This document shows positions 6,500 to 56,080 of a DNA stretch of 64,000 bases, piece after piece. Origin of the DNA: Gongronella butleri (lineage: Eukaryota; Mucoromycota; Mucoromycetes; Mucorales; Cunninghamellaceae); contig JAIWZP010000019.1 in NCBI GenBank assembly GCA_025201375.1, forward strand, positions 124,001 to 188,000, written 5' to 3'. The position numbers and the translations under genes are program-made. The notes beneath the pieces are model-generated. The model was not told the DNA's origin. It ran no database searches and saw only the letters and a program-made list of their open reading frames with translations. Within the stretch, counting starts at the first letter, position 1; each line of letters starts with the position of its first letter.

Positions 6500-7490
6500 C
6501 GATTTCCTAATGTCATCGGCTTGTTTTGATGCTCCAATGGGGTTTTGGAACGATCCCGCTCCTTTTCGCAACCAGTTTTCCGTGGTTGCTCGATGCAGAA
6601 TGCCGCCCTCTTTCATTTGAGCCTACAGCCACGTCATGGCGAGGCCTAGAGGGCTCGCAATGTCGATTTTCGAAATGAGGATTTTTCCAAGGGGTGCAGT
6701 CGACGATTTGAAATGGGTGATTTTTAGGTCCACAGCTCGCCACGGCATTCAACCAACATGGTAAATGGATCTCATTCACCGACGAAAATCCACTAAAAAC
6801 AAGGGGCCCATTGACTTAGTTTGGCGAAAAACGCGTTTACGTCCAATTTTCAGCTCAAGGTCATCTCAACGAAAAATGCATGTTTCTCGGTGAAACACGT
6901 ACCATCAGAGTGAGGATGGCTCGCTGCGTACGCCGACATTGGTGAGCAATAAAAAAGAGATTTTTTCGGCATTTTGACACGGGTTCAAAATCATATACAA
7001 TTTTCGACGCGTGATAAACCGCGTCAGACGTCGAGCTGCACGCGCCAGCTCCCTATCATGTATGCACGTGGACCGTCTCTTGCTGATGGATGCGTTGGCT
7101 TGACTCTATGAGCGCGTTTTCCCTGTGCAATTCGTGGTTGAATTTTAAGCTAAAGTCGGCCATTGCTCGCGACCCATTCGATGGATCTCTCTCTTTTTTT
7201 GGGCTCTTTCATGGTTTCTCCATGCGATTCATCTTGTGTGTAAGTCTGGTGTCCTTCTGAAGACTCTATTTTTCCATTTTTGTTTTGGGTGCTCTCCACC
7301 ACAAAATTTTGATTTGCACATGGCGAGCTTTTAAAGATGTTTGATCGCTGCCATTCGCGTTCCTCTCACATAGTCAGCGGCCCTTTTCATGTTCAGATGC
7401 GTGTCGGAGCTTTAAATGTCTTTGCGAGTGCCACGCTGCTTGCCCCCTCAAAATACACGCTCATCTAGAGTGCTGATGCTGAGAAACGTG
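6500..7490 (+). repeat. Dispersed repeat R1, copy 1
   Basis: Non-coding block between two convergent genes. It shares ordered blocks with 16700-17610, 33555-34280 and 55050-56080, all in this orientation: a GGGGTGCAGTCGA block (6690-6705), GCTCAAGGTCATCTCA (about 6852), a hairpin GACGCG-8 nt-CGCGTC at 7006-7025, CTTGCTGATGGATGCGT (about 7079) and a GCGCGTTTTCCC block. No frame is conserved among copies. Ends are approximate. Confidence 0.85.
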
Positions 7491-7520
7491 GATTTAGACC
7501 TGCAAATGTGTTTAATAAAT

Positions 7521-10267
7521 TTAAATCAATGAATTTAACTGAAGAAACAAGACAAAACGTTGGCGAAGCTTCTCAACAATCTGGTTGCTTGCGAGGGTCT
7601 TGCCATGGTGAAGCTTAAAATACGCAGGTAGCGCCGCAGACGCGCCAGCATCCTTGGCGAGCGCATCCACGCGATCCAGCAGCTTCAAGGTATCTGGCCT
7701 GGTGTACACCTTGCAGTCTGTGCGTTGAAAAAATAAAATAAAATCAGTACAAACTCGCTTTCTGTTGGGTTTGATGGCATTTACCGGCATAAACATCAAA
7801 CGCGTCCACGAGAACCACACCCGAAAAATCAGCCATGGCATGCTCCATCGTCGCGAGGGGGCCAATTAGCGCATATGCTTGATCAAATTGCTTGGACTAA
7901 TGCAAAAACAAGAAAAAAAAGTCAGATACTCAGCGTGTTGCGCGACCCACTGCAGGAATTGCAAGATAAATTTACCTGGACGAGGTCTCGGAATTGTTTG
8001 TACACTCGTAGAAATCGGTACGTGGGTGCGGCCTCCAATGCATCGGCTTGTTTATCGGCCATGACGACGTGATCGAGCTGTCCATCCATCAAATACTGAG
8101 TCAGCAGGATTTCGGCCACATTTTCGAGCCCCTCAATGTTCTTTGCAGTCGCGTAGTGCTTGGCGGCAACATCATGCTTGTCTTGGTCAAGGGCGCGGTT
8201 GCCCAATTGCGTGTAAATGTAGGATTCGACGAGATCTTGTTTGTTCTCGCGGCAAAATTGAGCAATGCTCTTCATTGCGTGGTCGCTCCATGACACGCGG
8301 CTGTGGTCCTCCAAGAGCTGATGATGCAAAAAAAAAAAAAGTTGAGGCATGCCACGGACTTTGTCTTTTTTCGTGCTTTTTTTTTTTTTTTTTTTTTACC
8401 TCGATATTCCAACAATTGCTGTTGACAGTGCACACCATGTTATATTGCATTGCTTCCTTTAGCATTCCGTACTCGGTGGCCAGCTGGCGTGCATAGTCGT
8501 TCAATGTATGGAAGATGGGATCGACGGGCCGCTCTGTGAGGGAGGGTTCTGTGTCTTTGTGCGTGTCGTATTCCAGGTGGCCGGCGAGCAGCAGCAAATG
8601 CCCGAGATGTGTGGCGAGCCATGCGTCGCGGTCGATGAGGCCCATGAAATTGTCGAGTCGCGAGGAAAAGAGTGCAGCATAGACGGCATCGTCGTCGTCA
8701 TTATCGTTGCCGCCGGTTTTGCAGCATTCCTGGAGGGCTTCCACGCAACGACGTCGCGTATCGAGATCAAGCACGGTCGGATGGCTGTAAATGAGACTTG
8801 GAAGGTAGCTATCGACGAGATTAAAGTCTCCAGCGTAGTGAGGCTCACTCAAAACTTCAAAAGACTCGCGCAAGCCAATGTCGTCCAAATCATGTGCATC
8901 CCGCAGACTGCCCTGGTCGCCATAAAAATAGTCAAACGTTACCAGCGCCTTGTCGTGCCATTCAGGCCATTGCTCATTCCACTGGGCGGTTTCCTCCATC
9001 GTCATGGGCAATGCCGGAATCATCTCAAGCACTTCAATGAGACTTGAATACGCGTCCGGCGTCTTGCATTGGTCCGTCGTCATGAACCATTTTAGCCTTT
9101 CCGCCACATCCAATGTGTTCCCGCGACGCAATTGCCTAAAAAAAAATGAAAAAAATAATAAACGCGTCAAAATGTTAGCGTGTCGCGTCCCAATTCATGT
9201 CCCGCCTCAGTCCTCGTACTGATGCAATCGTGGCCAAGTCAGCTGCTCGTCGCCAGGGTCGTCAATGTGATCGTCATCTATAAAAATGAGCCATGGTCAG
9301 CGTATCTTTTCGAGGACCGTGACTACAATAAAACAAAAACGCACTAAAGCCCAATTGAATATCCATCCATTCCGCCAGCCGACCAAGCGGCACATTGCCA
9401 TCGGGGTATTCGATGTACAGCAGCACGCAGAGCGCGAGCACAGGCAGTCGTTTGATCAATGCTTCGGCTTTTTCTTCATCCGACGCCTAAAAAATCAATA
9501 AAGATGAATTTTTGGTTCATGCACGTCCATGAACCGATCGTCTAACCTTTTTTTCGGGGCTCTGCCTTTGTTCCTTGAACAAACCAACAAGCTGGATGTA
9601 GTCCTGGGCGAAATTGGTCAGTTCATCGCGCCTATTTGTAGAGAAAAAAAGGAATAAATGAGCCTTTTGTTGCCATTGGGCGAGCCAATTGCACATACTG
9701 TTCGAGTGTCAGGCCACCAACGTGATCGTTCGTGATGTCGTTGTCAATCTGCCATGTTTGGATCTGCTGGAACAGATGGTGAGACGCGCGTGTAAACTAA
9801 AAAAAAAAAAGCGATTAAATGAGATTTCACCCCACATCCGGCTCAATTTGCCATTCATTCGCGTTTTACGTCTTCCCAGGTCTTTGGCGCACTCTCCTCC
9901 AGCATCCTTGAGGTGCTGCCGACATAGTCAAACTGAAAAAAATAAAAAAGGAAAGACGGACGTGAGTGAGAGTGCTTTTTTCACGCCGGATCGCGGTTGA
10001 TCGCGATGAAGCGCGCTTACCTGGCTTTCTTCAAGCTCGTGGCTATTGGCATGAGTGGTCGAGGCGTCGTCATTCGCGTGCTCATGCTAGATAATGGACA
10101 AAAACAAATGTAAAAAGGCAGCTTGTCGCCATAACAACAGAAGCAAAGCGGGTCTTTCTTGCTCGTACCCCTTTTTTCCATGAATTTCCTACCTGATCAA
10201 TACTAGCTCCACTACTGTGACTCATGCCAGACGACTTGCGCCTATGATTTCTTCGCTGTTTCGTCAT
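7521..10267 (-). CDS. NUP85: Nup85-like nucleoporin (Y complex)
   Basis: Structural subunit of the Y (Nup84/Nup107) complex, the outer scaffold ring of the nuclear pore. Eleven exons: 10267-10193, 10086-10021, 9932-9870, 9796-9699, 9631-9547, 9486-9345, 9277-9220, 9135-8400, 8317-7976, 7896-7785, 7717-7521. All phases fit and give about 657 residues, close to the roughly 650-residue length I know for animal NUP85. The fold is all-helical, with a polar N-terminus and then helices such as LPVLALCVLLYIEYP and a long exon 8. The C-terminal half is the most Nup85-like: a CRENKQDLVESYIYTQLG helix pair, an AAKHYATAKN segment, and RFLRVYKQFRDLVQ. No catalytic motif is expected. Nup107/Nup84 was considered and fits less well. 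The family call rests on remembered pattern, not alignment. Confidence 0.72.
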
Positions 10268-13763: not shown

Positions 13764-15841
13764 TCAATGATGACTGGGAGGTGCTGGGGGACCATAGTTT
13801 GCATATTGGTCGTAGGGCTTGCTGACGTCGTGCTCGTCCATCGATGGCTTTGAATAAATAATGGGGTATGTGGCCGACTCGTCTTGCGACGTGGTCACGG
13901 TGTGAGTGTGTGTCATTTCTGGCGGGAAGAACAAGGGTTGGCTGTGACGCGGGTCCGTGGTTTCCAGCTGGAATTGCTGCTTTTGCTTGCGTCGGCGCCA
14001 AAACAGATAAATAAGTGCCGCCGTGATGCCAATCTATACAAAATCGCATGCGAAAAAATATAAAATTAAACGTGCGCGTCAATGGCCATGTCTTGTGTGA
14101 GGGGGGTATATGCAGCAATGACTTACACCGGCAACAGCCGCGCCAACGGCAATGCCTGCAATGGCGCCTGTGCTCAAATGCGAGCCACTGCTGCCATTAT
14201 CGTTCGACGCAAACGAGCTGAACCAAGCCAATTGACTGAGATCCGTCACGTCAATGATGTTTGTGGAGTATTTCGACAGCGATGTGCCACTATCGCGGCC
14301 AAACAACAATAAAATCAACCTTTTGCCCTGGGTTTCGTAATACACGGCCTCGTGGCCGGCCAATGAGCCCGGGCGATTGTCCGAGTTGCCAAGCGTCACA
14401 TAGCTGAACGAATTGTTGGATAAATCAAACGTGTAGGCGGCATCGTTCACCACTTGCGCTGCATTTTGCAAGAAAATAAGATTAAAAATCGACTTTTTTG
14501 TCATTTGGCAACTTATTACGTGTATACTGGTACGCTTGAATACCACCATAAATGAACACCGTGGTTGTCCCAGGGACTAAGCGATAAAACGAGTGGAGAG
14601 TCAATTTTCCCCGAATTTTGCGCTTTTTCATTCGTTATTTTGCTCTTTTTTTTTTTTTTTTTTTTTGTTCGTACTCAACGTGACTGTATGATGAACACGC
14701 GCTGTAGGCACTCTGGTGCTCGTCATGGATGCGTTGATATATGACCACCGCGTCGACATGACGTCGTAAATTGGGACAAGCTCACATCGGCTGTCCTCGT
14801 ACCGAGTCATATTATTGGTATTGGCTGCGGGCGATTCCATGGCGCCACAAAACACGTAAATCTTTTGGCCATCATTGGACAAGATCGGCGTGAAGCTGTG
14901 CATCGTGATATTGCTTGGTGTCGGTGAGTTGACAAGCGAAAATTGATTCTAACATAGAAAAGCACCATAGTGAACGCGTCAATACAATGCCTGGCAACGC
15001 TGCACGTACACCTTTTCTCTCTTTCTACCTGGATGTAATCATAGAGGTACACATAGGGCATGGATGACCAGGTTTCATTCCCAAATGCGCTGGAAAACAT
15101 GAAAAAAAGACGATTTTGATTAGATTAAAGGGCATGCGAGGAGCTGTAGATCGTGCTTGGACGTACTTGATACCACCCCAAAACCACAAAGAGTGAAGAG
15201 AAGGGATGTCGACCACACCACCAAAAAATCTAGGAAAGGAGTCATCAAAAAGTGCCCATTTTTCCAAAAATAAAAAAAAAGATGCAATTGGGTGCCGCTT
15301 TACGGGATTTGGTACGACGGATCGCTTGGAAAGTTGATTGACTGCCAATTGTTGGTGATCGGGCTGCCAATGACCGGGTTGAAAACTTGGTATGTGAGGC
15401 TGTTTGTCACAGTCCACCAGCCATGGACAACCATTTGGGTTCGATTGTTGACTGCAACGACATTGAGGTTTTCGCCGCCATAAGTGAGCGCCCCGGGCGT
15501 CGGGTTGATTTGCTGCCAATTGAACGTCAAATTAGAAAAGTCAAGCGTGCTCAAATCCAGCTTCAAAAGGTCATTTGTGTCGCCCCCTGTGGTGCTATCG
15601 GTCGCATTGATGGTAGTATAACCACCATAGTAGTAAATAACGTTGTTCAATAATGCAGCGCCTGGCCATGACCCATGAGAAATAAAAAGGGGTGATCAAT
15701 TGATGTCTGTACCCCTGAAAATTGTAAAACAAACAAAAAAAAACGCCTTTTCTTACCTCCACCACCACGTGGCGCAATTGCAGCACGCGTCACATAGAAA
15801 TGCGTGCACAGACAGATCAGCAGTAAGCCATGCAGCACCAT
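13764..15841 (-). CDS. Kelch-type single-pass membrane protein A
   Basis: Predicted secreted-domain receptor-like protein of about 499 residues. Eight exons: 15841-15757, 15661-15304, 15229-15167, 15089-15029, 14948-14675, 14576-14520, 14458-14127, 14033-13764. A signal peptide (MVLHGLLLICLCTHFYVTRA) is followed by a kelch-like beta-propeller region with repeated NNVIYYYGGYT, DGQKIYVFCGA and TVFIYGG blades, then a glycine/alanine transmembrane helix (GAIAGIAVGAAVAG...ALIYLFW) and a basic stop-transfer RRRKQKQ. The cytoplasmic tail of about 70 residues keeps QFQLETTDPRH in common with paralog B. The frame from ATG at 15841 is preferred; the frame runs further upstream only through a TTG codon. 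Ligand and role are unknown; kelch proteins of this design are common in Mucoromycota by my recollection. Nearest relative is gene B at 18030-20041. Confidence 0.82.
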
Positions 15842-15915: not shown

Positions 15916-16680
15916 TTAAAAAAAGAGCCTCGTTGTCTTTTTTTGCTTTTGTCCATCTTGCTGCGTAAGCCAGGCATACCAAGTTTGCATCAGCCCTCGT
16001 GTCACACACAGCACGGAGGCAGCCCGAAATGGATCGTTTGTGCAATTGAGAATATTGAAAAAGGGCCTTTCAAGATGGGCTTCGCATGCAATTGCCATCA
16101 AAATCTGATATCTTTTGTCTGCCAGTGCGCGCCTGGCATAATCCTGCAGAAATGATTTAATAAAAGTCTTAGTTGAACAGCGCCAAGCTCACCGAGCAAT
16201 GGGATGAAACACTGAAAACGAGTAAAAAAGAGCAAAACGAGTATAATTGTGGCGCTGTCAGGAACCAGTGATGTACCTTTGTGTGACAGTGAATTGGAAT
16301 CCATCTGCAGATGAACACAATAAGCAAGAAGTTGGCTGAGAAAGTTCAATCAAGGGCCATGCACAACACAAAAAAATAAAAATGATCACAATGGACACAC
16401 GATCGACGCGATCGACGTTCCAATTACCTTCTCTCTCTTTTCCCGTATAACAAAGAATCATCTTTTGCTGCTTTTGACATGCAAGCATGTCTTGGTTCAT
16501 CCAGTAGGTTGCGGGGCAAGTTGAGTTTGAAACGACCCAATGCTTGATTAGAGTTTTAGGAGTACAAGGTGCATGCATGAGGTCAAGTCTGACAGTAATA
16601 ACATTGGTGTACCGCAGTGCGTCGCTTTCTAACGGTACGCTTGTCACTGAGCAAAAGACATTACGATACTGAGAAATTCG
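15916..16680 (-). pseudogene. Possible gene remnant truncated near repeat R1
   Basis: Four exon-like blocks read in phase on the minus strand: about 16680-16428, 16304-16277, 16211-16193 and 16143-15916, ending at a stop. The three implied introns have GTAATT, GTACAT and GTGAGC donors and polypyrimidine-AG acceptors (the last with a CTAAG-like branch site). The last exon reads like coding sequence, with DYARRALADKRYQ and MAIACEAHLERPFF. No ATG starts the first block: its frame opens only through TTG, and repeat R1 copy 2 begins just upstream. I infer either a gene cut by the repeat or a gene whose 5' exon I cannot see. I do not recognise the protein. Tiny exons of 28 and 19 nt keep confidence low. 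Confidence 0.35.
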
Positions 16681-16699
16681 CAATTGGGTTTTTTTTGCT

Positions 16700-17610
16700 G
16701 CATTTTTTGTTGATTGTCAGTGAATAGGCAACCTACAAATGGATCGGCTTGTTTAAACAATGCGCTCAAAGCTTCTCGTTCAAATGAGCCCACCCTTGCG
16801 GCACGGCGGCCGATGGATGGCGCGCAATTGTCGATTTTCGAAAATGAGGGATTTTCCCAGGGGTGCAGTCGAGGATTTGAAACTGATGACTTTTCGGTCC
16901 TCAGATCGCCATGCCATTCAACCCCATGATGAACATACTCCATTCATTGACGAACAGCAAGTAAAAACCAGGGATCCATTGACTGGCTTTGGCGAAAAAT
17001 GCATTTTATGTCTAATTTTCAGCTCAAGGACATCTCAGCGAAAAATGCCTGTATCTCGGTGAAACACATCTCGACTGAAAGAGCGTGGGTCGCTGCGTAC
17101 GTGAGCATTGGTGATCGATTAAAAAAGTGACTCCTTGGGCGTTTTTGACGCGGTATTGACATCTTAGATAACTTTCGACGCGTGCTACACCGCGTCAGAC
17201 GTCGATCTACGCGCGCCTGCTTCCTATCACGTATGCACATGGACCGTTTCTTGCTGATGGACGTGTCGGCGCGGTACTATGGGCGCGTTTTTCCCGCGCA
17301 ATTGGCGATTGAAGTTTAAGCTAAAATCAGCCATTGCTCGTCAACCATCAGATGGACCTTCGTCGTTTTTGGGCTTTTCCGTGGTGTCTCCAGGCAATGC
17401 ATCTTGTGTGTAAGTTTGGCGTCTTTCTGGGGACCTGTTTTTTCCATTTTGGTTTTGGAACTCGCCACCGCTGAAACTTGATTTTGCATGCCGCAGGTCC
17501 CATCGACGTGTAGCAGCTGCAAATCAAGTTCCAGCCGGTTTTCTGGCATGTCATCTCACTTTTGGGCGTGTTTCGGGATTGTACTGCTGAATCGGATGGC
17601 AAAAAAGTCG
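16700..17610 (+). repeat. Dispersed repeat R1, copy 2
   Basis: Same ordered blocks and orientation as copy 1, including GGGGTGCAGTCGAGGATTTG, CAGCTCAAGGACATCTCAGC, the hairpin at 17177-17196 (GACGCG, loop TGCTACAC, CGCGTC) and CTTGCTGATGGACGTGTCGG. The loop differs from copy 1 while both stem arms are unchanged. It lies between the two kelch paralogs. Confidence 0.85.
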
Positions 17611-18029
17611 CGACTTGGTGGTTTTTTAAACATTAATACGCAAGTACATCAGTTTAAGCTGAATCATATCATACTAAAACGATTCCAAAGTTGATTTTTT
17701 TGTGTATTTTTTCACATCAGTGTCAACTGGGTTGCATTGAAAGAATCGTTGATGTGAAAAGGGGCAGTTTAATATTTAAACTGCTTAAAATGAATTTTGT
17801 AGCCGCACACCCACAGCACACGTGCGTAAAATCTTCTTTAATTTGGCCGCAAAGGATTTTTGCGCACTTTGACATTATGCATTGTATTGGCTTTGCCACG
17901 CCAAAATACAATACAAAACGCGACTAAAGAAAATTTGGATGCCTTTTTGGCGTGATTCTCCTCATTGCTGACGTATTATTATCTTTTTATTTATGATTTG
18001 CGACTATGGTACAATGAAAAATAGGCAAA
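17611..18029. other. AT-rich intergenic spacer
   Basis: Follows repeat R1 copy 2 and precedes the stop of kelch gene B. No gene or structured feature seen; probably includes the 3' UTR of gene B. Confidence 0.45.
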
Positions 18030-20041
18030 CTAACTTGCAAAGTGATCGTAGGGTTTGCCAGTCTCGTGCTCGTCGACGGACGGCTTGGCATACATGATGG
18101 GCGTCTTCAAATGGTGACTGGCAGCTGTGTCTTCCTGGGACGTACCCAATGTGTCGGCTTGCTCCATGTCTGTCGAGAAGAACAAAGGCTCGGTGTGCCG
18201 CGGATCTGTGGTTTCCAGCTGAAATTGCTGCCTTTGTCTTCGTCGGCGCCAAAACAGGAATATAAGAGCCGCCGTGGCACCGATCTATACAAAAAAAAAG
18301 GGGGGTCGTGTCAGCAGCAATTTTATGTCTGTCTCGAGTGGAATGGTACAGTGGCTTACACCGGCAATGGCTGCACCGACAGCAATGCCTGCAATGGCAC
18401 CCGTGCTCAGATGGGAGCCAGCGCCATTTCCTGACGATGCATTGGTGTTCACCCAAGCCAATTGATTGAGGTCCGTCACGTCAATTGCGCTGGCGGTGAA
18501 TTGCGAGAGTGACGTGCCGGTGTCGCGGCCAAAGAGGATAAAAATGAGCTTTTTGCCTTGTGCTTCATTGTAAACAGCTTGGTGGCCAGCCAATGTGCTA
18601 GGGCGATTGTTCGAGTTGCCGAGGGTCACATAGTTGAACGAGTTATTTTTCATGTTAAAGGTATAGGCCGCGTCGTTGACCACTTGAGCTGCAGACAAGC
18701 AAGAAAAAAAGGCGTAAAACAGGTCAATTCGCGTCCAATGCCATTTAAATTGGACAAACATGAACTTACGAGAGTATTGAAACGCCTGCTGGCCGCCGTA
18801 GATAAAGACCGTGGACGTACCAGGGACTTTAGACGTGTCAAAAATAGAGTTAGCCTGTCAATTTTTCGGTAAATCGTTTTTCGTTCGCTTTTTTTTGTTT
18901 TTTTTTTTTTATCGTACTCAATGTGGCGGTGTGGAACACACGCGCAGTCGGCACTCTGGCGCTTGTCGTGGATGCATTGATATATGTCCAACTTGTTGTA
19001 AAAACGTCGTAAATCCACACAAGCTCGCACAAATTCGTCACGTATGGCACGCGCGCGTTTGTATTGGCAGCGGGCTGCTCCATGCCACCGCAAAAGAGAT
19101 AAATCTTTTGACCATCATCAGACAAGACGGGTGCAAAGCCGTCGATGGTCAAATTATTCGGCGTCCTCGAATTGACAAACGAGAATTGATTCTAAAAAGC
19201 AAATCCGGGGATAGACGCGTCAGTCCAAAACCGGACCTAGAGCCGTGATGCGGGTTTACCTGAATATAGTCGTATAAATAAACGTAGGGCATGCTGGTAA
19301 AGGTTTCCGATCCTTGAGCACTGCGGGAAAAAAAAAGGGGTAAATCAAAGTGTGCGTCCAGGAAGATGGATCATTGGGCATTACTTGAAGCCTCCAAAGA
19401 ACCATAATGAGTGAAGAGAAGGGATGTCAACAATGCCACCAGAGGTACTAAAGCATGGAGTTCGTCAATAACGCGCCATTTTCGATTTTTTTTTGTTTCG
19501 GATGCGTTCAAAGTGCCCAGCTTACGCCAATTGGTAGGATGCGTTGTTTGGGAAGCTCAATGGCTGCCAATTGTTGACAGCAGGGGTGCCAATGGTCGGG
19601 TTAAAGATCTCGACGAGGTTGTTTGTGATTGTCCACCAGCCATTGACAATGACTTGGGAATTGCTGTTGAACGAGACGACATTGAGCGTCTCGCCGCCAT
19701 AGGTGAGTGCGCTGGGTGTCGGGGTGACCTGCTGCCAATTGTACGTCAAATTCGAATAATCAAGCCGACTCAAATCGAGAGTCAGCAGGTCATTGACGTC
19801 GCCACCTGTCTGGCCGCTCGTGACATTGATTTTTGTGTAGCCGCCGTAATAGTAGATGACATTGTTCACAATGGCAGCACCTGCACGTCAAAAAATGAAA
19901 CCATGATTCACGTCCGTATCCCCGGGTTCAACCAAAAAAAAAAAAATTACCTCCGCCTCCGCGCAGCTGAACAGCGGCGCGCACCATGTACAAATGCGTG
20001 CTTATTATACAGAGCAGCAACAAGCTGTTCAAAGTGATCAT
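18030..20041 (-). CDS. Kelch-type single-pass membrane protein B
   Basis: Paralog of gene A, about 494 residues. Eight exons: 20041-19951, 19880-19526, 19447-19385, 19320-19260, 19191-18918, 18826-18770, 18688-18360, 18284-18030. Exons 3-6 have exactly the same lengths as in gene A (63, 61, 274, 57 nt) and every intron has the same phase. A signal peptide (MITLNSLLLLCIISTHLYMV) leads to kelch blades (NNVIYYYGGYT, DGQKIYLFCGG, TVFIYGGQQ), a transmembrane helix built from GAIAGIAVGAAIAG plus ALIFLFW, then RRRRQRQ and a cytoplasmic tail with QFQLETTDPRH. The tail ends KPYDHFAS, where gene A ends with a longer proline-rich end. The pair is a local tandem duplication. Function unknown; cell-surface carbohydrate or protein binding is a guess from the propeller fold. 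Confidence 0.82.
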
Positions 20042-23253: not shown

Positions 23254-26200
23254 TCATGGCGATGTGGTATCCACGAGCTGTTGTTGGTCTTGTGGGGAGA
23301 GATGGGGTAGGAGGCGTGTCATGTACACCTCTGCAAAGGAGGAAAAGTAGAATTCGTGCTCTGCGTTGTGCAATGCGACGAAATTGTGGGCCAATTCGTG
23401 GCAAATGGTCATGTACCAGTAGACAAGGGCGTCGACGCGCTTTTTGGGGTCATTGTGGTGTAGGGCGAGGAAGTAGCGCAAGTTGAGGAACAGACTGCCG
23501 CTGCGATTAAAGGCAATGGTGGCGCCCTCGAGGTCGTAATAGAGGTGGATGGTATTGAGCTTGAGTTCAAACACTTGCGCAAGCGTGGTGACGAGTGTGG
23601 CAAAGGCGAGCAGGCCCTGGCGGTGCTGGACAACCATTGTTTCCGGGTCAACGTCCTTTTGCGCATAGCACTCAATCTGCTTGATCTGGCCAACATGACG
23701 CAAATTGTTGCCTGGCGTCGTGTCGCAATAGGTGGATGCCTCTGTCACCGTGTTGATGGTGGGCCGTGTGAACATGTGCTGGCCCGTGAATGGCTTGCAC
23801 GAGTGGATGGCTCGTTTGAGGTTTTGTTGGATGTTGGACTCGTAATTGGGCGTGATGGTCGTGGGTTTGGGCAATGATGGCTGCTTTGGCGGCGTGTTTG
23901 GCGCGTCGTTCAGCGCCTCCGGTGGTGGTGGCGTGCCACTGGGCGTGTTTGTGGACGAATTGGGCGTCTTTGGGCGTCCCCATTGCAAAAAGCGATCAAA
24001 GAGGCCGCCGGGCGGCATTGGCATGGTGTCATCGACCTTTTTGTCCATTGTCTCGGGCTGTTGTTGCTGGATCTTTGGGTAATCTTCGTGCAAAAGGCGT
24101 TCAATGACGCGTTCGGCATGATTGTCGGGCTGTTGGGCCAAGAGCTGGCGAATGTAGCCGCGATCGCAGTCGCCAAAGACGCCCTGGACCTTTTTTGCCA
24201 ATTGGTCCATCTGTGCGGGCGGCAATGGTTGCTGTGTGGGCAAAGGCGGCGGCGTGGCGGGCGAATGGGTGCCTGAAGACGCCGATGATTGTGTCGTCAT
24301 GGTCGGTGGCGCGGGTGCAGGCGATGGCGCGGGTTGGTCGACGTGCTTTTTGATGTTTAGAATGCGGTCGACGGGCACGCCTTTGCGTCGGAGATTGTTG
24401 AGGCTGACGGTCAAGTACCGCTCGGCAACGACAGTGTCATTGAACTTGATGCGCGCAAACAACAAATAGCACAATGCCATGGCAATATCGTAAAAGTCAA
24501 TTTCGCCCGCACTTGTCACGTAAATAGCGAATTTCGCACGGTCGACGCACGCGGTCGTGGGCTGGATGTCCTTTTCGCCCGTGGGCTTGAAAACACGATT
24601 GATGCACAGATTTTGTACTTGGATCACCTTGAGATGCCGCTCCACGTACTTTGCGCTGCACAATGGCTCCTTTTGACGCTGCGAGAAATCCTGTCTCATC
24701 TGATACAAGATAATCGGCGTCCTTTCCAAAATCAACCCCATAATGGCTCGCGAGCGCGCCGTCGCGTCTTGCTCGCCCTTGTACGTGTATGTCTCCTTGA
24801 TTTGACTATTATTTTTTTGAAAGAAAAACGAGAATTGAGCCATCACGGATTGACGGAAAGAAAAAAAAGATGAAAATTTGTTAAAAACGTTACCTGGAGA
24901 GCTTGTCGCTGCCAAGACTGGTGTAAAATTCTTCGAGGAGAGGCTCCATGGGCGCGGACAAGGGCGCAAAGATCTGCTGGCTCACCGAGTCGTCATTGAT
25001 GTAAATGTCTGCGGCTCGTGCAAGTCGATATTGAATGAAATCGTCGGGATCGTCTGATTTAGCGTGATTGGCGGCATCGTCGTGCTTGTTGTTGGCATTG
25101 GTGTTGTCCTCTGTTTGCTTGTCATTGTCCGATGTGGTGCGCTTGATGGCGACAAGACACGGGGTCGAGCTCAATTGCCTGAAAAGCGCGCGATCCTTTT
25201 TGAGCTGGTCTGCCTGGCTGGCCATTTGTCTGAGGATGGTCAGGTATCGCTCGCCGCCACCACACAGCTCCCAGAACCGCTGCGGGTCCTTGACGAGCAT
25301 GGCCGCGAGCTCAGGGGTCGTCGGCTCGTTTTTCACGCCGCAATTGCGCAAAAAGCCATTGGCCTGCGCACCAAAGTCGACATACAGGAACAATTCCTTG
25401 TGCAGATTGGAGTCGCCGCTCGAGGATGATTCAAAATAGCACTCTGTCGGGCACACGAGGTCGACATTGGCATTGGACGCGCGTTTCACGGGAACAAACG
25501 CGAGATTGTTCAATTGCGCCCAGTGTGTGCTCTGCAGGCGGCCCATTTGCGACGCCATGTACTCGAGGACGGGCTTCATGGCTTTTTGGTCGTTTCTGAT
25601 GTGGCTCCTAAAGGCGGCAAGCAAGCGATCGGGGCTTGGATGGTCTTTGACGCCCAATCGGTCCTTGACGGGAACGAGATCGTCGTGGAGCACTTGGAAA
25701 CCGAGGATTTCGGCGTCGCGGTGCGAGAAACAATCCTTTGGTGCCGCATACGTCTTTCCATCGCGACATGGCAGGAATGCCGTAGCAATGGCGTCAATTT
25801 GCGCCATGTATGATGCTCTGTAATGGTCTGCATTGTCGATCAGGTACGTCAAAGCGCGTCGCCGCATGGCGGCATCGGCCGTGGTGTCTGGCGCGGCAAT
25901 CTGTAGCAATTGCGCGAGCGGCGGATGCGATTGCAACCCGAGTTTGGCCATGAATTTGGCTTCTTCGCTTGTCGTGCGCCAACGACCGGTGGTGGACGCC
26001 GTGCTGGCCGCGTTGTGATGCCAGTCGAGCAGCGGCAGGCCCAATTGCCGCAGGGTATCCGAGGGTATATACAAATCGCCGGCCTTGTACCGCACGTACA
26101 CTTGTTTTGTCACCGTCTCCATGATCGCATGGCCCTGCTCATCCAATTGGCCCGTCGGCCGCTTGCCCTTCTTCGTCTTGGCGGCCTCACCCTCCTTGGT

Positions 26201-29200
26201 GAAGATCGCCGTCTGCTGCAATCGCCGAATCTCAAGATCCGCAAGCGTATTTTGAATCCCCGTCAGGTACTTGATCAGATCCACGTGCGACCAGCTGCCA
26301 TCCGACAACAGACGATCAAAGATGAGCTGCAAATCCACGTGCTACTCCATTCAGAAAAAAAGAATGAGAAACAAAAGTGAGAAAAGAAGAAAAATTGCAC
26401 AAAAAAGGGACGCGATCCGAGCCCACTAGTGCCATCTTTTGGATTTTTTTTTTTAGCAATTACCTTGCGCACGCCGAGGGCAGTCAAAAAGGCATCGCTG
26501 ACATGGCGTGGTTGCTGGAATTGGGCGGTGGGCAGGTCGTCAAACAAATTGACTGAGCTAAAATATGTATCTGTAGGCAATTTCATGCCAAAGCGCGTGG
26601 GGATGCATGTCTTTGGCTTGAGCTGCGCGACCACTTGCTGTTGTGCCTGGCTAGACAGGTGATTAAATCCGCGCGACACCGTGGAAAGCACTTTTTCCGA
26701 GAATTCGGGCGATAGCTGCAAACGATCCTCATGCGCGGCAATGTGCTCCGTCCACGTGACAATGGACAGCTCTGACATGCTGCGCGTAAAAAAAAAAAAT
26801 GAACAGAAAGGAATGAGCTTTTTCCGCCTTTTTCCACCCCCTTTTTTCCTTTTTTTTTTTTTTTTTTTTTTGTTTCTTACCCAAAGTACATGGCCAGATC
26901 CGGTGCGAGGAATGCCTTGCTGACGACAAAGGGCAATGTAGAATTAGGGACGGGCATGTCGAGGGCAATAAGCTTTGGGTTTTGCCAAGTGCGGGCGTTG
27001 GAGAGCTGTAACAGGCGGTCATCCGAGCAGGTGACGACGGCAGCGGCCATGAATTTGTTGCGCGACGCGTCGAGGCCCTGCAGTGTTGACTTTGGGATGA
27101 GCGGGTTGCCCTTTGCGCACTCGATGAACCATTTCATGGCGGCAATCATTTCTTGTGTATTGAGTGAGCGAGTGTCGAGTTCCTTTAGGACATCGTCCAT
27201 GCCGAGCGGCACGAGAATGCCTGCCTGCGTCAATTTGCGAACCGTGTCCTTGCATTGCTTTTCAATGGCGGTGCTGAGCGTCGGGATCGACTTTACAAAG
27301 GTATTTAGCATCTCGGAGAGTGACGGGCTTGTCAATGTATACGATTCGTCGGGCATGGTGCGTGTGATGGTGGCGGGTTGGACGCCATGCGACGTCATGA
27401 TGCGCAGCGGCAATTTGCTTGCGTGGACAAAGCGTTCTTCTTGAACAGAGCTGACAATGGGGCTCGGTGTCGATGGTTGGAACGAAAAAGACAAGAGCGT
27501 GTGTGCGGCGCGTTGATCGAGCATCTGTTTCGCCTCACTGAGTGGCTGCGTCTTGTCCACAAGCGCTTCGTCACCGAGCAATTCCTGATAAAGGATGTGC
27601 ACTTGATCCATATCGTCATTGTACACGATGCGCGCCAAAAGGCCGCCCACTGCGAGCAATTCGCGGTTCCATACGCTCAAATACCTGTCAGCAAAGTCGA
27701 TGCTCTCGCGTTCGACCGTGGGAATGAACCGTGCGGCCATGTGGCAGCAACAGCCCGTGGTCTGATGCGTTGGAAACCCGATAAACACGCGCCCTTGCTG
27801 TGGAAACGGCACCAAGTCCTTGAAAAGATCCAACGAGTGCTCCGACGCATCCAATTCGTCCTTGTTCGTGTACACGAGCTGGAATCGCGTCTGCCGAGGC
27901 GGCTTTTTCTTCGTCGACCGTTCCATTTCGCGCACAAGGTCAAAAGGCACTTGCACACCCAGATCCGCGCTCACAACACGCAAAAACATGCTGCCGCTCT
28001 CCATTGGCAACCCATCGGCATTCGTCTTGACGCTGCGGCTCGACAGCAGGTTCGTCCATGGCGCAAAAAGTGACGGTGGTGTGTATTTCTCGGCCGTCAG
28101 CTGGATCTTGCGCATGTCCGCGCCGCCAATCGTGAACATCTTTTTCGGAGACGTCGTCTGCACCTTGCGCGCGTCCACCACCATGGGCCGTGGCTCCTCG
28201 GTGCGCTTGTTGATCGAAAACACCTTGGTTTGGTTGAAAAACACGCTAATCTCACGCAAATTAGCCGTGAATCCCTAAAAAGAAAACGAATGAAGAGATG
28301 AATGAGCCCTTTTGTGCCATCTTCGTTTGGTGCCATGGCTTTACCATGCTGGTCGTGAGGAATTTCGCAAAATGGTCGAGATTCGGCATTTCCATGGGCT
28401 CGCGCATATCCATGAGGAACACAGTCCAATCGCCGCGCTCGTTTTCAGGCACCGGTGCGCGTCGGGCAAACAGCTGGTCGCCCTTGAAGTAAAACGCCAT
28501 ACACTCGGCCCCAGAGAACACACTGGAAATGAAAAAAGCACAATGAGCCCTCATTTTTGTCCATCCGCGTTCCCCGCCTCCGCACAATGGCGCCTTACAA
28601 TGGATTCTCGCACACTGAGAAGAGTGAGTAAAAGCCAACACCAAACGCGCCGATTTTCTGCTCGTCTATCATTCATAAAAGAAAACACAAAAGTAAAATA
28701 TGCATCAGCGACAAGAGAGCAAATGGAGTCGAGAAAAAAGACAGAAGCCTTACCTGGGTTGCCCTCGGCAATGCGCTTCAGTCGCTGCCAATCCTCGGGG
28801 CGAAAAGCAATGCCATTGTTTTTAAAAGTGATTTTGTCGCAGGGTGCAGAGAGATTTGGCAGCTTGGTGCCTGTTTCCTGCGGCTGCGCGGTGTGGAAAT
28901 GGATTTCCACCTTGGAGGACGAGGCGTCGTCTAACAAATAAAAAAAAGGAAAACATGAGGCGCTGAAAAGAGCGATTTTTTCGACTTGTTTTAGGAGCGT
29001 CTTACCTGCATTCTGCATCAATTCACGGTACAACACATACTCGGCCGAGTATCGAGCCAGGATCTTGTCGATAAGATGACGCTGGTTCACTGTGACAATG
29101 AAAAAGGGTGAGCATGCCACTGACTTTTCTTGCTTTTCTTCCTGTGGACCCAATTTGCCCTTTACCTTCGACCTTTTCTTCGCGTCCGCCGCTGTCGAGG

Positions 29201-33145: not shown

Positions 33146-33554
33146 GCCAGGTCTTTACGTTTTAATCGCGATTTTACCATTCATGAAAGGATAGCGCATC
33201 CTTTTCCTCATTTGCTCTCTTGTACGCACCCTTGCTAAGATGCCTCATTTGCTATGTATGATCAGAGATTGCATTGACCAGGATCTGGGTACGTGCAAGC
33301 CAGAGAAAAAATAAAATGAGAAAAATCTCATTTGCTTGCGATCACACAATGCCCCACTTGGCCGTACGCGTCTTTACGCGTCCACGTGCTATCATTCCAC
33401 GGAATCAACATCTCTGGATTATTTGCATATCCGAGGAACAGTCAATCGCTGATTGAGCGCGGCTCACATTCAATTAATGTCTCTTTCTTAAAAAACTGTA
33501 TCAGATTCTCAATCAGTTTCCTGTTTCTTTTTTTTTTATCTTCTTTTTTCCCCA

Positions 33555-43749: not shown

Positions 43750-44110
43750 GCTTTGAAGTGCGTGGACCGGTAACATTTTACTATAATGTTGAATTTCAGT
43801 GTACCTTTGCACTGCACAATGGTGTCCAAGTCGCGCCTTATAAATTTGTGAGATTGATGCTTGATGAGGGTCGTATGGAACTCATTCATCTTATCGGGCA
43901 AGCAAACAATCAGAAAATGACATCCGAGTGCGTCTCTTTCAATTATTGGTGCCATTTTCATTGCAATCCACAAAATATTTTGAGAGACCATGCTGGATTT
44001 GTGGAAATGTTATATATTCTAGCTACAGTAGGTACAGTATGATAACAATTTTCGGATTCATCTGCACAACGACTCATCCAGTTGACTCCTGCGCTGGTTT
44101 GAACGTCTTA
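43750..44110 (+). repeat. Diverged repeat pair, first copy
   Basis: Matches 45170-45530 in the same orientation: ATCGGGCAAGCAAACAATC versus ATCGGGCAAACAAACATTC, GAAAATGACATCCGAG versus GGAAATGACGCCCGAG, and TTCATCTGCACAACGACTCA versus GTCATCTGCACGACGACTCA. Non-coding and AT-rich. Confidence 0.65.
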
Positions 44111-45169
44111 CGGTAATTAAATAGAGACGCATCGACAGATACTGTATGATGATATGTAATAAACTGTGATTGATCATCGCTGAACAGAAAAGAACACACC
44201 ACTCGTCTTTACAGTAGTAGAAAATGATAAAAAATACAGTATCATCATAGCGTGTTCTTGGGATTTTGATTGCCTGTTGTGACTCCAGAAATTTTTTTAC
44301 AGCCTACCACCTGCCCGCAGATGAACGTTGTGTCAAGACTTGAACTACAGTACAGTACTGTACAATACAGTATCGCCTCTGCGCTCCAGGATGGGTCCGC
44401 CCGATTTTTTTTGGACTCGAAAATGCCAAAAACGCCTGATTTGTCCTATTTTGCATTCATCTCGCCATCTGCATGGTCAAGCCCGGTCAAAAACAGCCGC
44501 ATCGTGTTCAGCGCAAAATTTGCAACAAAAAAGCTTAAACCTCTAAAGCGCTACGATCACTTTTGAGAAATTCAGGGGTCACTCAGGGGTCACACTTTTC
44601 AATCTCAGAAAATGCCAAATTTGGAAAATTTCGAACTCCGAGTGATCAATGCATCTCAAAGAGGCAATTCCGACAATTTGTTGCTATTGGCAGACAAAAT
44701 GGCACGTCGCCGCAACTTGAGAAAAATACCCAAATAGTGACGCATGAACGGCGATCGACTGAGAAAATTGCCTACATCGAGCAAGATTTTTTTGCAAAAA
44801 TTTAAGGTTTGACACTTCCAAATTAAGGTGCGTAAATTGCATGGAATTTTTTTTTGTGCGTATTTTTTTTATTTTTTTACAGTATTTTGCACATTTTTGT
44901 GCGCTGACCAGTGACCACGCGCTGATGATGCATGAGTGGGCTGCAGGCTGGTGAAATGACCGATGCAAAAAGTCAAAACCCAAGCTACAGTAGCGCGCTG
45001 CAAGTCACCCTATTAGGTACTTTGCCTCCCTGTTTGTTAGTAATAAAACTACTACTGCAATAAAATCGGTGATCGATTAGACCGGTGTCTAGCAAATCGC
45101 GATCAAAAATTTTGATGAAAAAGTGAATTTTCTCTGCAAGTTTTAGCAATCCATCGATGAAAAAACTGC

Positions 45170-45530
45170 TCTCATTACAGTATTCGGCAGAGATGAAAGA
45201 GGTGCCTTCGACACGTTACAGTACTGTAAAAGCGCCCTGTGCTGTCCAATCCGTTGCCCAGAACAACATCGAATAATTTGAAAATTTTTGTAATGTTTGA
45301 ATGAACGGCTTTCACAGGCCGTACAAAAGTACAATGGCCACGCATCGGGCAAACAAACATTCCGGAAATGACGCCCGAGCCTGTTTGATTCGAACAATGC
45401 AAATTTCATGGCGATCAAGCAAAGAAGAATTTGACCAAGCCATTGTGCAAATTGTGAGAATGTCGATGTTTTGGAGTCATCTGCACGACGACTCAACGGA
45501 CCTCTGGTGTTCAACGCCATGTTGAAAAAA
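45170..45530 (+). repeat. Diverged repeat pair, second copy
   Basis: Second member of the pair described at 43750-44110, about 1.4 kb downstream in the same orientation. Confidence 0.65.
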
Positions 45531-45751
45531 GACGCAAAGAAATGGCCAAATGAAAACATTTTGGAGGCGATCCAACCATGATGGTTTGTACGTAGTGTTT
45601 AAGATCAATAAAGGTATTTGATAGGTACATATGGTGGCAATCGAATCATGATTTTGCCTCGCAAGGATGCTTTTTTTTTACGTATGTACCGTACATACAT
45701 ACAGTAGCACGCTCCAGCCTACTGTAATTTTGAGCAATGTTGGATTGTTCG

Positions 45752-46217
45752 TAGGGTTGTTAATTCGAGCGAGCGAGACGAGATTCACCTTGTCTCGTCT
45801 CGTCTCGACAAAATGTTGGGTCATCTCGATCTCGATCGAGATTCTCCTGGTCGAGATCGAGCGAGATTCGAGCGAGATTCGAGAATGTCACATGACAACT
45901 CGAGCATTTTTCTTCAAAACTTTGTCTGGTGGGGTGAAAAAATCCACCAAAAAAAGTCGACACAAAGACAAGAGTTGAACCTTTCACATCCTGAGTGCCA
46001 AGACAAAGCTTTTTCCCATTGCACCACAGCACTAATCTAAAATACATGATGAAACATTACACCTAACCTAATTTTTTTTGTTCGAGATTCGAGCGAGACG
46101 AGCGAGATTTTACTTTCTTGTCGATCGAGACGAGCGAGATTCAGGTCGTCTCGATCGTCTCGATCTCGTCTCGAACCCTCGAGATTTTCGAGCGAGATTC
46201 TCGATTTAACATCCCTA
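45752..46217. mobile_element. Non-autonomous hAT-type element (MITE)
   Basis: 466 bp flanked by a perfect 8-bp duplication ATTGTTCG (45744-45751 and 46218-46225), the target length of hAT transposons. Ends are imperfect inverted repeats: left TAGGGTTGTTAATTCGAG, right (reverse complement) TAGGGATGTTAAATCGAG. Both subterminal regions are packed with GAGACGAG, TCGAGCGAG and their complements, the kind of array hAT transposases use. There is no transposase frame, so it would need a partner in trans. The inner 170 bases are unrelated to the ends. Confidence 0.88.
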
Positions 46218-46851
46218 ATTGTTCGCAAAATCAATTGATTATTGCTTTACAGTATTTTATTCTGAGAAAAGAGGGTAGAGGGGTCAAAACTACCAAGCGA
46301 AAAAGCTTTTGTGGTGTAGCAAAAGGTCCTTGGTGGTAAAATGTCATATTTCTTCAATTCTAGAAAAAAAAGAACAAGGCAGCAGGCCAAAATGCATCTG
46401 GTGAAGGATCCACTGCTTTGAGAGGTCGACTCCCTGACAAAAAGTCAAATGTGCTCGGCGAGACACGCTCAGGCTCTCTGAGAGTGTTGCCATTCAATGC
46501 ATTTGCCCCCGTTTCTGTGATTCTTTTTTTAATCGTCGCCAATTCGATCAATTTATGATACGTCGAACCGCGTGCGTCGATCTTTGCATGTATTCTATGC
46601 GGACACGAATCGTGTACTACTGTATTTATCATGCAACAGCTACAGTATACTGTATGCATCGTGTTGTTCGGCACCAAACAAATCAAGATTGAAATACTTG
46701 ACCATTTTATGTTCTGAAATTTGGAGCAATAATGGGCAAGTGCCTGAAAAAGCGGCCGCCCCAAACGTTGGCGCTGCACAAATTTATGCGTAAATGGGAC
46801 GGAGCTTTTGGCCCACTGTCCACTTTTTTTTCTCTTTTTTCACGTCAACCA

Positions 46852-52096: not shown

Positions 52097-53275
52097 TCAT
52101 TTTCTTGCGCTGAACCGGGGAATGCGTTTCATTTCGTTTTTACCAGGATAGGCATCGCTCGGATGGGTGGTTTGGGTGATGGCGGGCTGCTCGTGGGAAA
52201 GAAGAGATTGCGATGTAGCGGCGGAATTAGCATTGACGCGCTGCTGCTGTGTGCGCTGGTGTTGAGGAGCATTGGATGTGACTGCGGGGTCGACGGTGTG
52301 GTGGTAGTATTGGCGGTGGACGGCATCATGCATGGCAGACGAGTGGATGAGCATGTGTGGCGAGTACATGTGACCGAGAAGAGGCATGATGGAATTGTGT
52401 TGATAATAGCCATATGAGGGCAAGCTTGGGGGCCAGGATGACGTGTGCAGGTGGTGCGTATGGTGATCCGAGCCGTCAAACACGTATGCCGGGTACAATT
52501 CGGTGTGTTGCTGCTGTTGCTGCTGTTGCTGCTGTTGGGTCGCGTGCGTTGACGTGGTGATCGCAAGGTGGTGACGGTGCTGATGATGATGGTGGCTCTG
52601 TTGCTGCGGCACCTGCGGCTGCTGATAAATTGTGGTGCTCGGGCGGAGAACCATGGTAGCCAATGGCGCCGAATCAGAGTCCGAATCGTATGTAAACGCA
52701 TAAATGCTGTCGTCAGCCATGGTTGTCAGCATTTTCTCGCTTTTGGAAGACGAGTCCGCGGCGTGCTGTTTCGGATGCTTCTCGTGCTGTTCTTGCGGTT
52801 CTTGATGGTCTTGCTGTTCTTGCTGGTCTTGTTCAGGCGGCGTGGCGGCCTTTTGCGTGTCCGAGGGGCTGCTGGCATGGCGAGACGATGGCGATGGAGG
52901 CGACGCGTCGGCATTGGGCGAGTCTTCCGACGAGGCGTTGGTTGCAGAAGGCTCGTCGAGCTCCTGCACGGCCTCAGGGGAGCGTAGAGTCGCCGTTCCC
53001 GACAACGATTCGGACTTTGGCGACGTCATTGACGAATTCTCGTCGTCCAGTGTCAATTGCGGTGACGCAGATCGACCGCGCACCTTGTCCTTGGATCGCC
53101 GGTTCTGGAACCACACCTGGATGCGTCGGCGCGTGGTCCCGAGCTTCACCGACAGCTCATGTTTCTTCATTTGGCTTGGATTTGCCGATTCTGCATACGC
53201 CTTTTGCAAAATCGCAATGTGCTTTGCAGGGAACCTTTGCCGGTGTTGACTGAGGTTCTGGGGACGCGATGACAT
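52097..53275 (-). CDS. Homeobox transcription factor
   Basis: Single exon, 392 residues. A typical 60-residue homeodomain at about 9-66 has RQRFPAKHIAILQKAY in helix 1 and TRRRIQVWFQNRRSKDK in the recognition helix (Trp55, Phe56, Asn58, Arg60). It is not a TALE type, because no three-residue insertion is seen. The rest is disordered: acidic/serine patch DDENSSMTSPKSES, Gln/Glu tract, poly-His, a ten-residue poly-Gln, and Tyr/His-rich C-terminus. Such regions often act in transcriptional activation; that is inferred. Sequence-specific nuclear DNA binding is the expected role; targets unknown. Divergent from the carrier gene over 310 bases that include a long T tract. Confidence 0.92.
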   Translation of the reverse strand: MSSRPQNLSQHRQRFPAKHIAILQKAYAESANPSQMKKHELSVKLGTTRRRIQVWFQNRRSKDKVRGRSASPQLTLDDENSSMTSPKSESLSGTATLRSPEAVQELDEPSATNASSEDSPNADASPPSPSSRHASSPSDTQKAATPPEQDQQEQQDHQEPQEQHEKHPKQHAADSSSKSEKMLTTMADDSIYAFTYDSDSDSAPLATMVLRPSTTIYQQPQVPQQQSHHHHQHRHHLAITTSTHATQQQQQQQQQQHTELYPAYVFDGSDHHTHHLHTSSWPPSLPSYGYYQHNSIMPLLGHMYSPHMLIHSSAMHDAVHRQYYHHTVDPAVTSNAPQHQRTQQQRVNANSAATSQSLLSHEQPAITQTTHPSDAYPGKNEMKRIPRFSARK

Positions 53276-53529: not shown

Positions 53530-53570
<41 letters not shown>

Positions 53571-54548: not shown

Positions 54549-55049
54549 CTTGATGTTTAAATCGCATTTTAGATGGGCTATGGGCAATAAAAAGTCATAT
54601 GCGCAGATGTTTTGAGCTTTTTGATTGCGCGTCTGGACGCGGGACCCTGGATGCGTGCGAGCTGGTGGCGCCGCTGTCTTCGGGTGTATTCGGAGCCAAT
54701 CCTATTCTGCGCGTCAAAAAATAAAAAAAGCAAAAAATCAAAGAGTACAAAGCGCGTTTTCTCGCTATTCTTTATTCTTCCTTTTTTTTTTTCTCAGTAA
54801 CCTGAAAAGGCGAATGGCCCATCCTATCTACAGTAGCCTTGCAATATCATAGTTTGTCCATTTTATAAGCAGTATGGCCAGAAAGAAAGAACCAAAATCG
54901 ACATTTTTGGATTTTTTGGTGTTTGTCGAGCCATTGCGCGCTTTCAAATGGCTTGCAGATTTCTTGTTGTTTGTTCGTCGCGTCTGTACCATGCATTAAA
55001 ATTGTGTGCTAAAGAGATACTTGTCAAGAAAAATCGCAAATGGCCAATT
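54549..55049. other. Intergenic after the carrier gene
   Basis: Contains the carrier 3' UTR (AATAAA at about 54586) and AT-rich sequence. No gene seen before repeat R1 copy 4. Confidence 0.5.
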
Positions 55050-56080
55050 TATGGCATTTTGATCGTTTGTCAGCACGTGGACAAGATTTCAAGGAACGCC
55101 GACTCTTTGGGATTGCAAATATCAGGCTTTCTCGTTCAAATGAACCCACTCTGGCACCTTTGCGACCACTAGATGGCTCACAATCACCATTTTCAAAAAT
55201 GACGGATTTTCCAAGGGGTACAATCAACGACCTGAAAATCCAGAAACTTAGGTCCGCGGATCGCCACACCATTCACATACATGGTAACGTCGCCTCCAAA
55301 ACCGACAAAAATGAAATAAAAACCAAGGGTCGATGGACAAGGTCTGGAGAAAAACGCGTTTTGGGCCGCATTTTCCTCACAAGGCCAAGTCAACGAAAAC
55401 GGCACGTAGCGCCTCAAAATAAAAACCATCAGAAAGAGCACGAATTGAAGAATGCGTAGACGTCGGTGATTTCTGAAAAAGATGATTTTTTTTGGCATTT
55501 TTGACGCGGTTTTAAAATCATAGACAATATTTGACGCGTGATAAACCGCGTCAGACGTCGTGTTACACGCGCCTGTTCTTTTAAGTTTCATGCATTTGAC
55601 ACATCTCTTGCTGATGGACGCGTCGGCGCGGCTCGATGGAAGCATTTTGACCGCGTCATTCGTGTTTGAAATAAAATTTAAAATCGCTGATTGCTCGAGA
55701 TTCAACAGACAATATTGCCGTCTTTTTTGGCATTTTTGTTGATTTCGCCATGCGATTGTTCTTGTGTGCAGCTTGGTACGTTTCTGGAAACCTCGATTTC
55801 CAATTTTCATTTTAAGACCTCGCTACTGTAACACAAAATTTTGATTTGCGTTTTGCGAGCCCAAATGTACTTTTTTTACAGCTGCACGCCTTTTAGAAAC
55901 GGCTTTCCTCGCTGGCGTCGCCACGATGAGACGTGTTTTGCGGCTTCGCCATCCCTGAAGGGTAGTCAAATGGGCGATTCGTTGCTAAAATGACCAATTG
56001 AGAAAAGCGCTAATCAAAATCTTGTCCAAATGGCTCGTAGTTTGATACCAACTGATGCTTGACACAGAGATTCGTCTTTT
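55050..56080 (+). repeat. Dispersed repeat R1, copy 4
   Basis: Most complete copy together with copy 1: TCGTTCAAATGAACCCACTC, a CCAAGGGGTACAATC block, GGTCCGCGGATCGCCA, hairpin at 55533-55552 (GACGCG, loop TGATAAAC, CGCGTC), CTTGCTGATGGACGCGTCGG, and an end near CTTGTCCAAATGGCTCGTAG that matches copy 3. It lies between two convergent genes and carries no conserved frame. Confidence 0.85.

Follow-up and report, generated by a model that had tools for sequence, protein, structure and literature searches.

R1 of Gongronella butleri: a probable old, mosaic family of non-coding, non-autonomous transposable elements

Our combined findings suggest that R1, a repeat found in four copies in the window (the whole 64-kb stretch of DNA analysed here), probably represents an old, mosaic, high-copy family of non-coding, non-autonomous transposable elements whose core has been kept for mobility. 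Scanning the window at E 1e-3 with an nhmmer profile built from 46 copies, the window's own included, matched these four copies and no others (E 1.9e-259 to 5.8e-159). The copies and three associated features are as follows.

6569-7564, + strand: R1 copy 1, dyad at 7006-7025 (nhmmer, 46-copy profile, E 3.6e-233)
16631-17716, + strand: R1 copy 2, dyad at 17177-17196 (nhmmer, 46-copy profile, E 1.9e-259)
33547-34280, + strand: R1 copy 3, dyad at 33747-33766 (nhmmer, E 5.8e-159, model positions 373-1089)
34355-34649, + strand: possible direct repeat right of copy 3, a weak match to the segment left of the core in other copies (nhmmer, E 1.1e-11, 36.6 bits)
43891-44116, - strand: second of two degenerate pieces of the carrier A left module lacking R1 (clade A profile 95-284, E 2.8e-20)
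44989-45513, - strand: carrier A left module, degenerate and lacking R1 (clade A profile 116-590, E 1.5e-41)
54976-56080, + strand: R1 copy 4, dyad at 55533-55552 (nhmmer, 46-copy profile, E 1.4e-242)

In pairwise blastn the four copies were 68-78% identical over 271-704 aligned columns. They align in one order and on one strand, and each contains GACGCG-N8-CGCGTC, hereafter the dyad; copy 3 is left-truncated, starting ~176 to 200 bases before it. The order, the common strand and the positions and loops of the stems that a sequence-only reading had reported are confirmed. The common strand is a local feature, with a chance expectation of 1 in 8. Open reading frames around the copies overlap on both strands. 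To the left of copy 4 lies a mitochondrial-carrier gene on the + strand, and copy 2 is enclosed by two direct 1.9-kb segments that are 67% identical to each other. A match to Pfam DUF3684 is in keeping with a fungal genome.

Many copies, on both strands, have in common a core of ~670 bp (-350 to +310 around the dyad). We rejected a protein-coding core, in agreement with the same reading's remark that no frame is conserved, since the majority sequence showed no 3-base periodicity of conservation and had stops in all six frames. Single copies can hold chance open reading frames, such as one of 205 amino acids on the - strand of copy 4.

Further copies are abundant in the 33.0-Mb genome. The exact dyad pattern occurs at 615 sites, compared with 5 for a reversed-pattern control, and an extended motif (up to 3 mismatches) at 355 sites on the + strand and 337 on the - strand, 692 altogether, compared with 0 and 1 in the reversed control. 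Our rough estimate is 1,250-1,750 copies of ~1.05 kb each, or ~4-5.5% of this compact genome. The exact-stem sites listed on one contig (C1) were irregularly spaced by eye. An exact motif pattern was absent from the viral contig and genome contig collections searched, plasmids yielded no distant match, and a literature search found no such family among the matches listed, which does not establish its absence from print. The family contains subfamilies with diagnostic blocks and some close pairs. The mean pairwise distance of the core, 0.34, indicates that R1 is not the product of recent copying only. The earlier suggestion of copying by a non-autonomous element is upheld by the high copy number on both strands and by two recent clades, A and B, of which the first is sharply delimited and the second carries long inverted repeats.

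Clade A, whose elements we call carrier A, occurs at 19 places besides L094, with 85-95% identity to a 441-bp left-end query. Homology began at one place in all 18 left ends fetched, 13 with an exact ACAAGG and five with variants. At the 3' end, seven of nine read TCTAGA exactly on the + strand and the others TATAGA and TCTACA; six of 15 scored matches stopped short of this right end. By eye, no target duplication of at least 3 bp was found in the six elements for which both ends were available (L097, L098, L100/L118, L104/L122, L107/L129 and L112/L132), and flanks were judged unrelated, three of the eight run through nhmmer being themselves R1. Clade A thus combines the dispersed copies, sharp ends and unrelated flanks expected of a transposable element. 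Ordinary R1 is dispersed too; its match to the clade A profile mostly sets in at around -350 (about -354). The terminal segment of clade A also occurs without R1, as in the 3 kb of sequence at L134, where there is no core. This presence of the carrier A terminal module both with and without the core shows that the core is exchanged between mobile elements.

Carrier A resembles Helitrons, above all the fungal Helitron2/Helentron type: reversed, it starts with TC, like the Helitron 5' TC, it has a short hairpin-like stretch near its 3' end (CTTGCCAGGCCAGGCAAG, by eye), it shows no target duplication in those six elements and it captures foreign sequence. It differs in ending with CTTG and in having this stretch 16 nt from the end, whereas the canonical Helitron 3' end, as given in PMC5148889, is CTRR with a hairpin 10-12 nt before it. 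Ordinary R1 itself shows none of these ends. The single Helitron_like_N match in the genome, at C23:689603-690181, has two internal stops and was not tied to R1 or carrier A, and no enzyme was linked to either.

Clade B is built differently: in L096 and L128, R1 is enclosed by a pair of ~175-bp inverted repeats. In this it is similar to terminal-inverted-repeat elements, a group that includes MITE- or Pack-like elements, from which it differs in that neither outer ends nor a target duplication could be made out and some members are incomplete (L010 keeps the interior but neither repeat, and L095 retains the left repeat alone). We rejected these repeats as R1's own ends because of the bare interior of L010. 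Nor are terminal inverted repeats general to R1: self-blastn of R1 loci over 2.5 kb found flanking inverted repeats in L096 only, and they were later also seen in L128. The core could itself be a cis-acting module of selfish DNA, portable between transposons of unrelated structure, that controls replication or transposition, with the dyad read by a dimeric protein. We regard this as unlikely; if true, the module would move between Helitron-like and long-inverted-repeat carriers and would therefore be conserved across carriers with unconserved ends.

Ordinary R1 copies showed neither defined ends nor terminal repeats, and no target duplications; conservation declines gradually. A sharp end at about -505, suggested by 7 of 46 loci, was rejected: two of the seven, L024 and L039, have by eye a different sequence farther left in common with window copy 2, which we read as a module switch. 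In some copies the left-hand segment reappears on the right of the core, as would be expected of a TRIM- or LTR-like miniature element bounded by direct repeats or of a ~1.38-kb tandem unit. A profile trained on the left flanks of 11 loci other than window copy 3 matched again right of the core, in direct orientation, in L044 (+569 to +928), L047 (+576 to +747) and L005 (+585 to +900), the last of which had contributed its own left flank to the training, and in window copy 3 (+608 to +902). A two-fold cross-validated search recovered the repeat in L005, L044, L029, L025 and L040 (48, 43, 86, 18 and 15 bits, respectively). However, the repeat was seen in fewer than half of the 46 loci, its spacing is inconsistent (~1,080 in L029, ~1,385 in others), ends and target duplications are not defined, and plain self-blastn as a rule revealed no flanking repeat. 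We regard this explanation as very unlikely.

The arms of the dyad had been said never to change. This is so in the four window copies. It does not extend to the family, in which 17 of 40 copies selected without using the hairpin have a perfect stem. At that frequency four of four in the window had a probability of ~0.03-0.06, so the apparent invariance was partly luck. The stem did not diverge like its surroundings: it is 94% conserved, above both the loop and the core (76%). This, and the folding of the lone 20-base dyad as single-stranded DNA (-5.7 kcal/mol compared with a shuffle mean of -1.8, z -3.3), would be consistent with a selected hairpin, in RNA or as cruciform DNA. Yet other blocks of the core are near or equal to the stem in conservation, compensatory double changes were seen in 0 of 238 stem-pair cells, and of 27 single changes 16 disrupt the base pairing. 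RNAalifold on 32 copies gave a covariation term of 0.01, with a double change in none of the four pairs. Of the 100-base stretches around the window dyads, three of four folded no more stably than their shuffled versions, and in that of copy 4 an alternative pairing beats the hairpin; no Rfam family was matched in the window at the gathering threshold. The proposal of a selected structure is therefore not sustained, and we consider it highly improbable; the "hairpin" is a short conserved sequence within the R1 family rather than an established structure of RNA or DNA.

Of all 6-mers in the window that occur 30 times or more and contain more than two different bases, GACGCG is the most over-represented (127 occurrences compared with 36.6 expected and a shuffle mean of 36), at 3.4 per kb inside R1 and 1.9 outside. 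Its abundance throughout the window weakens its reading as a repeated binding word, whether as iterons or as the MluI cell-cycle box.

Conservation differs strongly among core columns (sd 0.165 compared with 0.065 expected from sampling). Within clades, columns conserved elsewhere differed at rates of 3.1% and 4.3%, compared with 26.5% and 21.0% for variable columns, and changes private to one clade member were roughly half to a third as frequent where conservation is highest as at other columns (per branch, 0.026 compared with 0.056 in clade B and 0.014 compared with 0.048 in clade A). Together with the 94% conservation of the dyad, such sparing, somewhat evident in the private changes, could point to a dispersed element with a host function, its resident copies selected as binding platforms (for example a replication origin, insulator or promoter) and the dyad as binding site. 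Against this, perfect stems are found in just 17 of the 40 copies, the core is mobile inside carriers, and the four closest pairs did not significantly spare conserved columns (p 0.83, 0.41, 0.19 and 0.12, with limited power). Host function is thus unlikely, and selection, within that limited power, is likelier to act on lineages that move than on the individual resident copies. The deficit of private changes, and the same lean in all four close pairs (conserved compared with variable columns: 5.3/5.8%, 2.9/4.5%, 6.6/10.3% and 5.7/10.3%), allow some selection on resident copies. We set aside a large palindrome around the dyad; weak inverted matches linking the two sides of the core at six loci (L006, L017, L023, L024, L026 and L032; E 3.7e-6 to 2.9e-4) may point to an inverted duplication of great age.

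For the transposable-element family that we favour, lineages retaining the core would be those that are copied, because a trans-acting enzyme or host factor would read it, and the dyad may be one recognition site, read as duplex sequence. Copying would occur in trans, with a rolling-circle (Helitron-like) enzyme as a possible agent in clade A, and resident copies would later decay under little or no selection. Points that speak against this reading are the undefined ends and gradual loss of conservation in ordinary R1, the matches that stop short of the clade A right end, the interrupted Helitron_like_N match, and the deficit of private changes with the common lean of the close pairs.

SINE superfamilies have a conserved central domain with differing ends, and R1 is similar in its one conserved core and varied ends. 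It differs in the length of that core and in that no Pol III promoter or tail was found; clade A showed no target duplications, and an ARAGORN scan of the window gave no tRNA. A non-coding family of this type would escape protein-based repeat annotation. R1 is unusual in that its middle is conserved, its ends are not, and the middle occurs in carriers with differing ends, making testable the reason for which a gene-free mobile core is conserved.

R1, a dispersed non-coding repeat in which no reading frame is conserved, occurs four times in the window. Each copy carries a GACGCG-N8-CGCGTC dyad, and all four dyads lie where the sequence-only reading had put them; a profile built from 46 copies, the window's four included, found these four copies and nothing more in the window at E 1e-3. 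Copies 1 and 2 share 78% identity (672 aligned columns), and the remaining pairs are 68-72% identical over 271-704 columns. The copies and the domain-matching ORFs of the window are:

6569-7564 (+): R1 copy 1
16631-17716 (+): R1 copy 2
24890-26338 and 26877-28259, within 23254-28259 (-): ORFs with a domain match to DUF3684, a fungal domain
33547-34280 (+): R1 copy 3
52097-53275 (-): homeodomain ORF, by domain match
54976-56080 (+): R1 copy 4

Copy 2 lies between two direct 1.9-kb segments (13799-15664 and 18035-19883) that are 67% identical and are probably tandem duplicated genes. Immediately left of copy 3 is a tandem-like repeat (32123-33116; unit spacing ~490 bp, 76-84% identical), and similar sequence is found close to R1 at three other genomic loci (L004, L032 and L046). 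Of the 6-mers tested across the whole window, GACGCG/CGCGTC was enriched most strongly (127 versus 36.6 expected), followed by GACGAC and CGACGA.

We estimated the abundance of R1 in the whole genome (33.0 Mb, 110 contigs; the window is C22:124001-188000), which is probably fungal, judging from the DUF3684 and homeodomain matches. A blastn search with 455 bp of copy 1 gave 827 candidates, the best 40 of which were 73-79% identical, self apart. A 28-base motif, at up to 3 mismatches, was found at 355 sites on the forward and 337 on the reverse strand (control, 0 and 1), and the exact stem pattern, which is its own reverse complement and gives identical sites on both strands, at 615 sites versus 5 for the reversed control. 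Two further core blocks, at up to 3 mismatches, gave 435 and 313 sites (controls, 0). R1 was present at 30/30 of the motif loci examined and at 13 of 15 exact-stem loci, all on contig C1, the exceptions being L012 and L014. Dividing the pattern counts by the share of examined copies that matched (22/40, 17/40, 5/20 and 4/20) yielded 1,258, 1,447, 1,740 and 1,565 copies, respectively, estimates that are rough because the shares were drawn from high-scoring copies in small samples.

Is the dyad conserved as a structure or as a sequence? Circularity was avoided by picking copies with right-half and left-half queries that both lacked the hairpin, taking 20 of 40 places per query in rank order and skipping loci already obtained (n = 40). 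Per-base conservation was 94% in the stem, 81% in the loop and 76% in the core (-380..+400, counted from the dyad); thus the stem does not diverge like its flanks. Among 20-base blocks the dyad scored 0.892, equalled by the block at -324, and blocks near -271, +73, +109, +134 and +227 scored 0.85-0.88. The arms, read earlier as never changing, are indeed invariant in the window's four copies, whereas in the family the stem is perfect in 17/40. With 2 gapped cells set aside, 238 stem cells could be scored: 211 were unchanged and 27 had one-sided changes, with the pair lost in 16 and G-T formed in 11; none of the 238 had a compensatory, both-sided change. RNAalifold on 32 of these copies predicted 4 pairs, 0 with a double change, and a covariation term of 0.01. 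The isolated 20-base dyad folds better than shuffles, whereas three of four 100-base window stretches fold no better and the fourth favours another pairing. The proposal of a selected DNA or RNA structure thus finds no support in the stem cells or the covariation term, and conservation without double changes, together with the mixed folding, indicates that the dyad is constrained as sequence.

Identity across 46 aligned loci peaks in a core of ~670 bp (-350..+310) and tapers off gradually on either side. In the core, 86 copies differ by a mean pairwise distance of 0.34, subfamilies are marked by diagnostic blocks at -131..-120 and -55..-5, and in some copies sequence partly matching the left flank appears again, in direct orientation, right of the core. 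One group with inverted repeats, clade B (L010, L095, L096 and L128), is 80-83% identical over about 1.85-2.46 kb; repeats of ~175 bp flank R1 on both sides in L096 and L128, on the left only in L095 and not in L010. A genome-wide search with this repeat scored 15 candidates, which yielded 16 matches. When 18 copies spanning -500..+400 were compared with clade B in 50-base bins, identity was 0.62-0.76 within -400..+300, with 0.83 for the bin holding the dyad, against 0.53-0.68 to the left and 0.63-0.67 to the right, a drop that is real but moderate.

Clade A, which includes L094, L097, L098 and L052, comprises recent R1-carrying elements with sharp ends. With a 441-bp left-end query, the best 40 of 395 candidates included 19 places besides L094 at 85-95% identity. 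In 18 left ends homology begins at a single place (exact ACAAGG in 13, variants in 5). By eye the flanks seem unrelated, and 3 of 8 searched with nhmmer are R1 themselves (L107, L108 and L109). At the right end, 6/15 scored matches end short; TCTAGA is exact in 7 of the 9 ends read and one base off in 2. No target duplication of at least 3 bp was seen in six elements with both ends (position-paired, by eye). In reverse reading clade A resembles a Helitron, with TC at the start and CTTGCCAGGCCAGGCAAG 16 nt before the end, but it ends in CTTG, unlike the CTRR among the Helitron terminus rules given in PMC5148889. The genome has a single scored match to Helitron_like_N (PF14214), at C23:689603-690181 (+), with two internal stops, one TGA and one TAG.

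In most ordinary R1 copies the match to the clade A profile begins only at about -350, and in a few it begins at -389 to -497. The A end occurs without the R1 core at L134 (3 kb read), and the A left module, minus its outermost 95-115 bases, occurs without R1 at 43891-45513 in the window:

within 43891-46502 (-): degenerate carrier A remains, a stretch without R1
45453-45581 and 46253-46502 (-): weak matches to the L134 interior, in a stretch without R1

Clade A is therefore a separate element that carries R1. The A end pattern, at up to 3 mismatches, has 35 genomic sites; 11 share a single identical variant, suggestive of a young family. One of these eleven places is L134 (C16:566700-569700), where the sequence to the left is itself similar to carrier A.

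Columns conserved at ≥0.95 outside both clades differ among members by 3.1% (A) and 4.3% (B), versus 26.5% and 21.0% for columns below 0.55. Between closest pairs, conserved (≥0.85) versus variable (<0.65) columns differed by 5.3% versus 5.8% in L128a/L128b (p 0.83), 2.9% versus 4.5% in L064/L097 (p 0.41), 6.6% versus 10.3% in L064/L052 (p 0.19) and 5.7% versus 10.3% in L097/L052 (p 0.12). We read this, with limited power, as constraint that would act on copying lineages and little or not at all on resident copies. However, the shared direction of all four pairs leans against unconstrained resident copies, as do private changes per branch (best versus worst columns, 0.014 versus 0.048 in A and 0.026 versus 0.056 in B).

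The interest of R1 lies in one non-coding core common to carriers with different ends. In kind, this is like the central domains of SINEs; in size and mechanism, it is unlike them.
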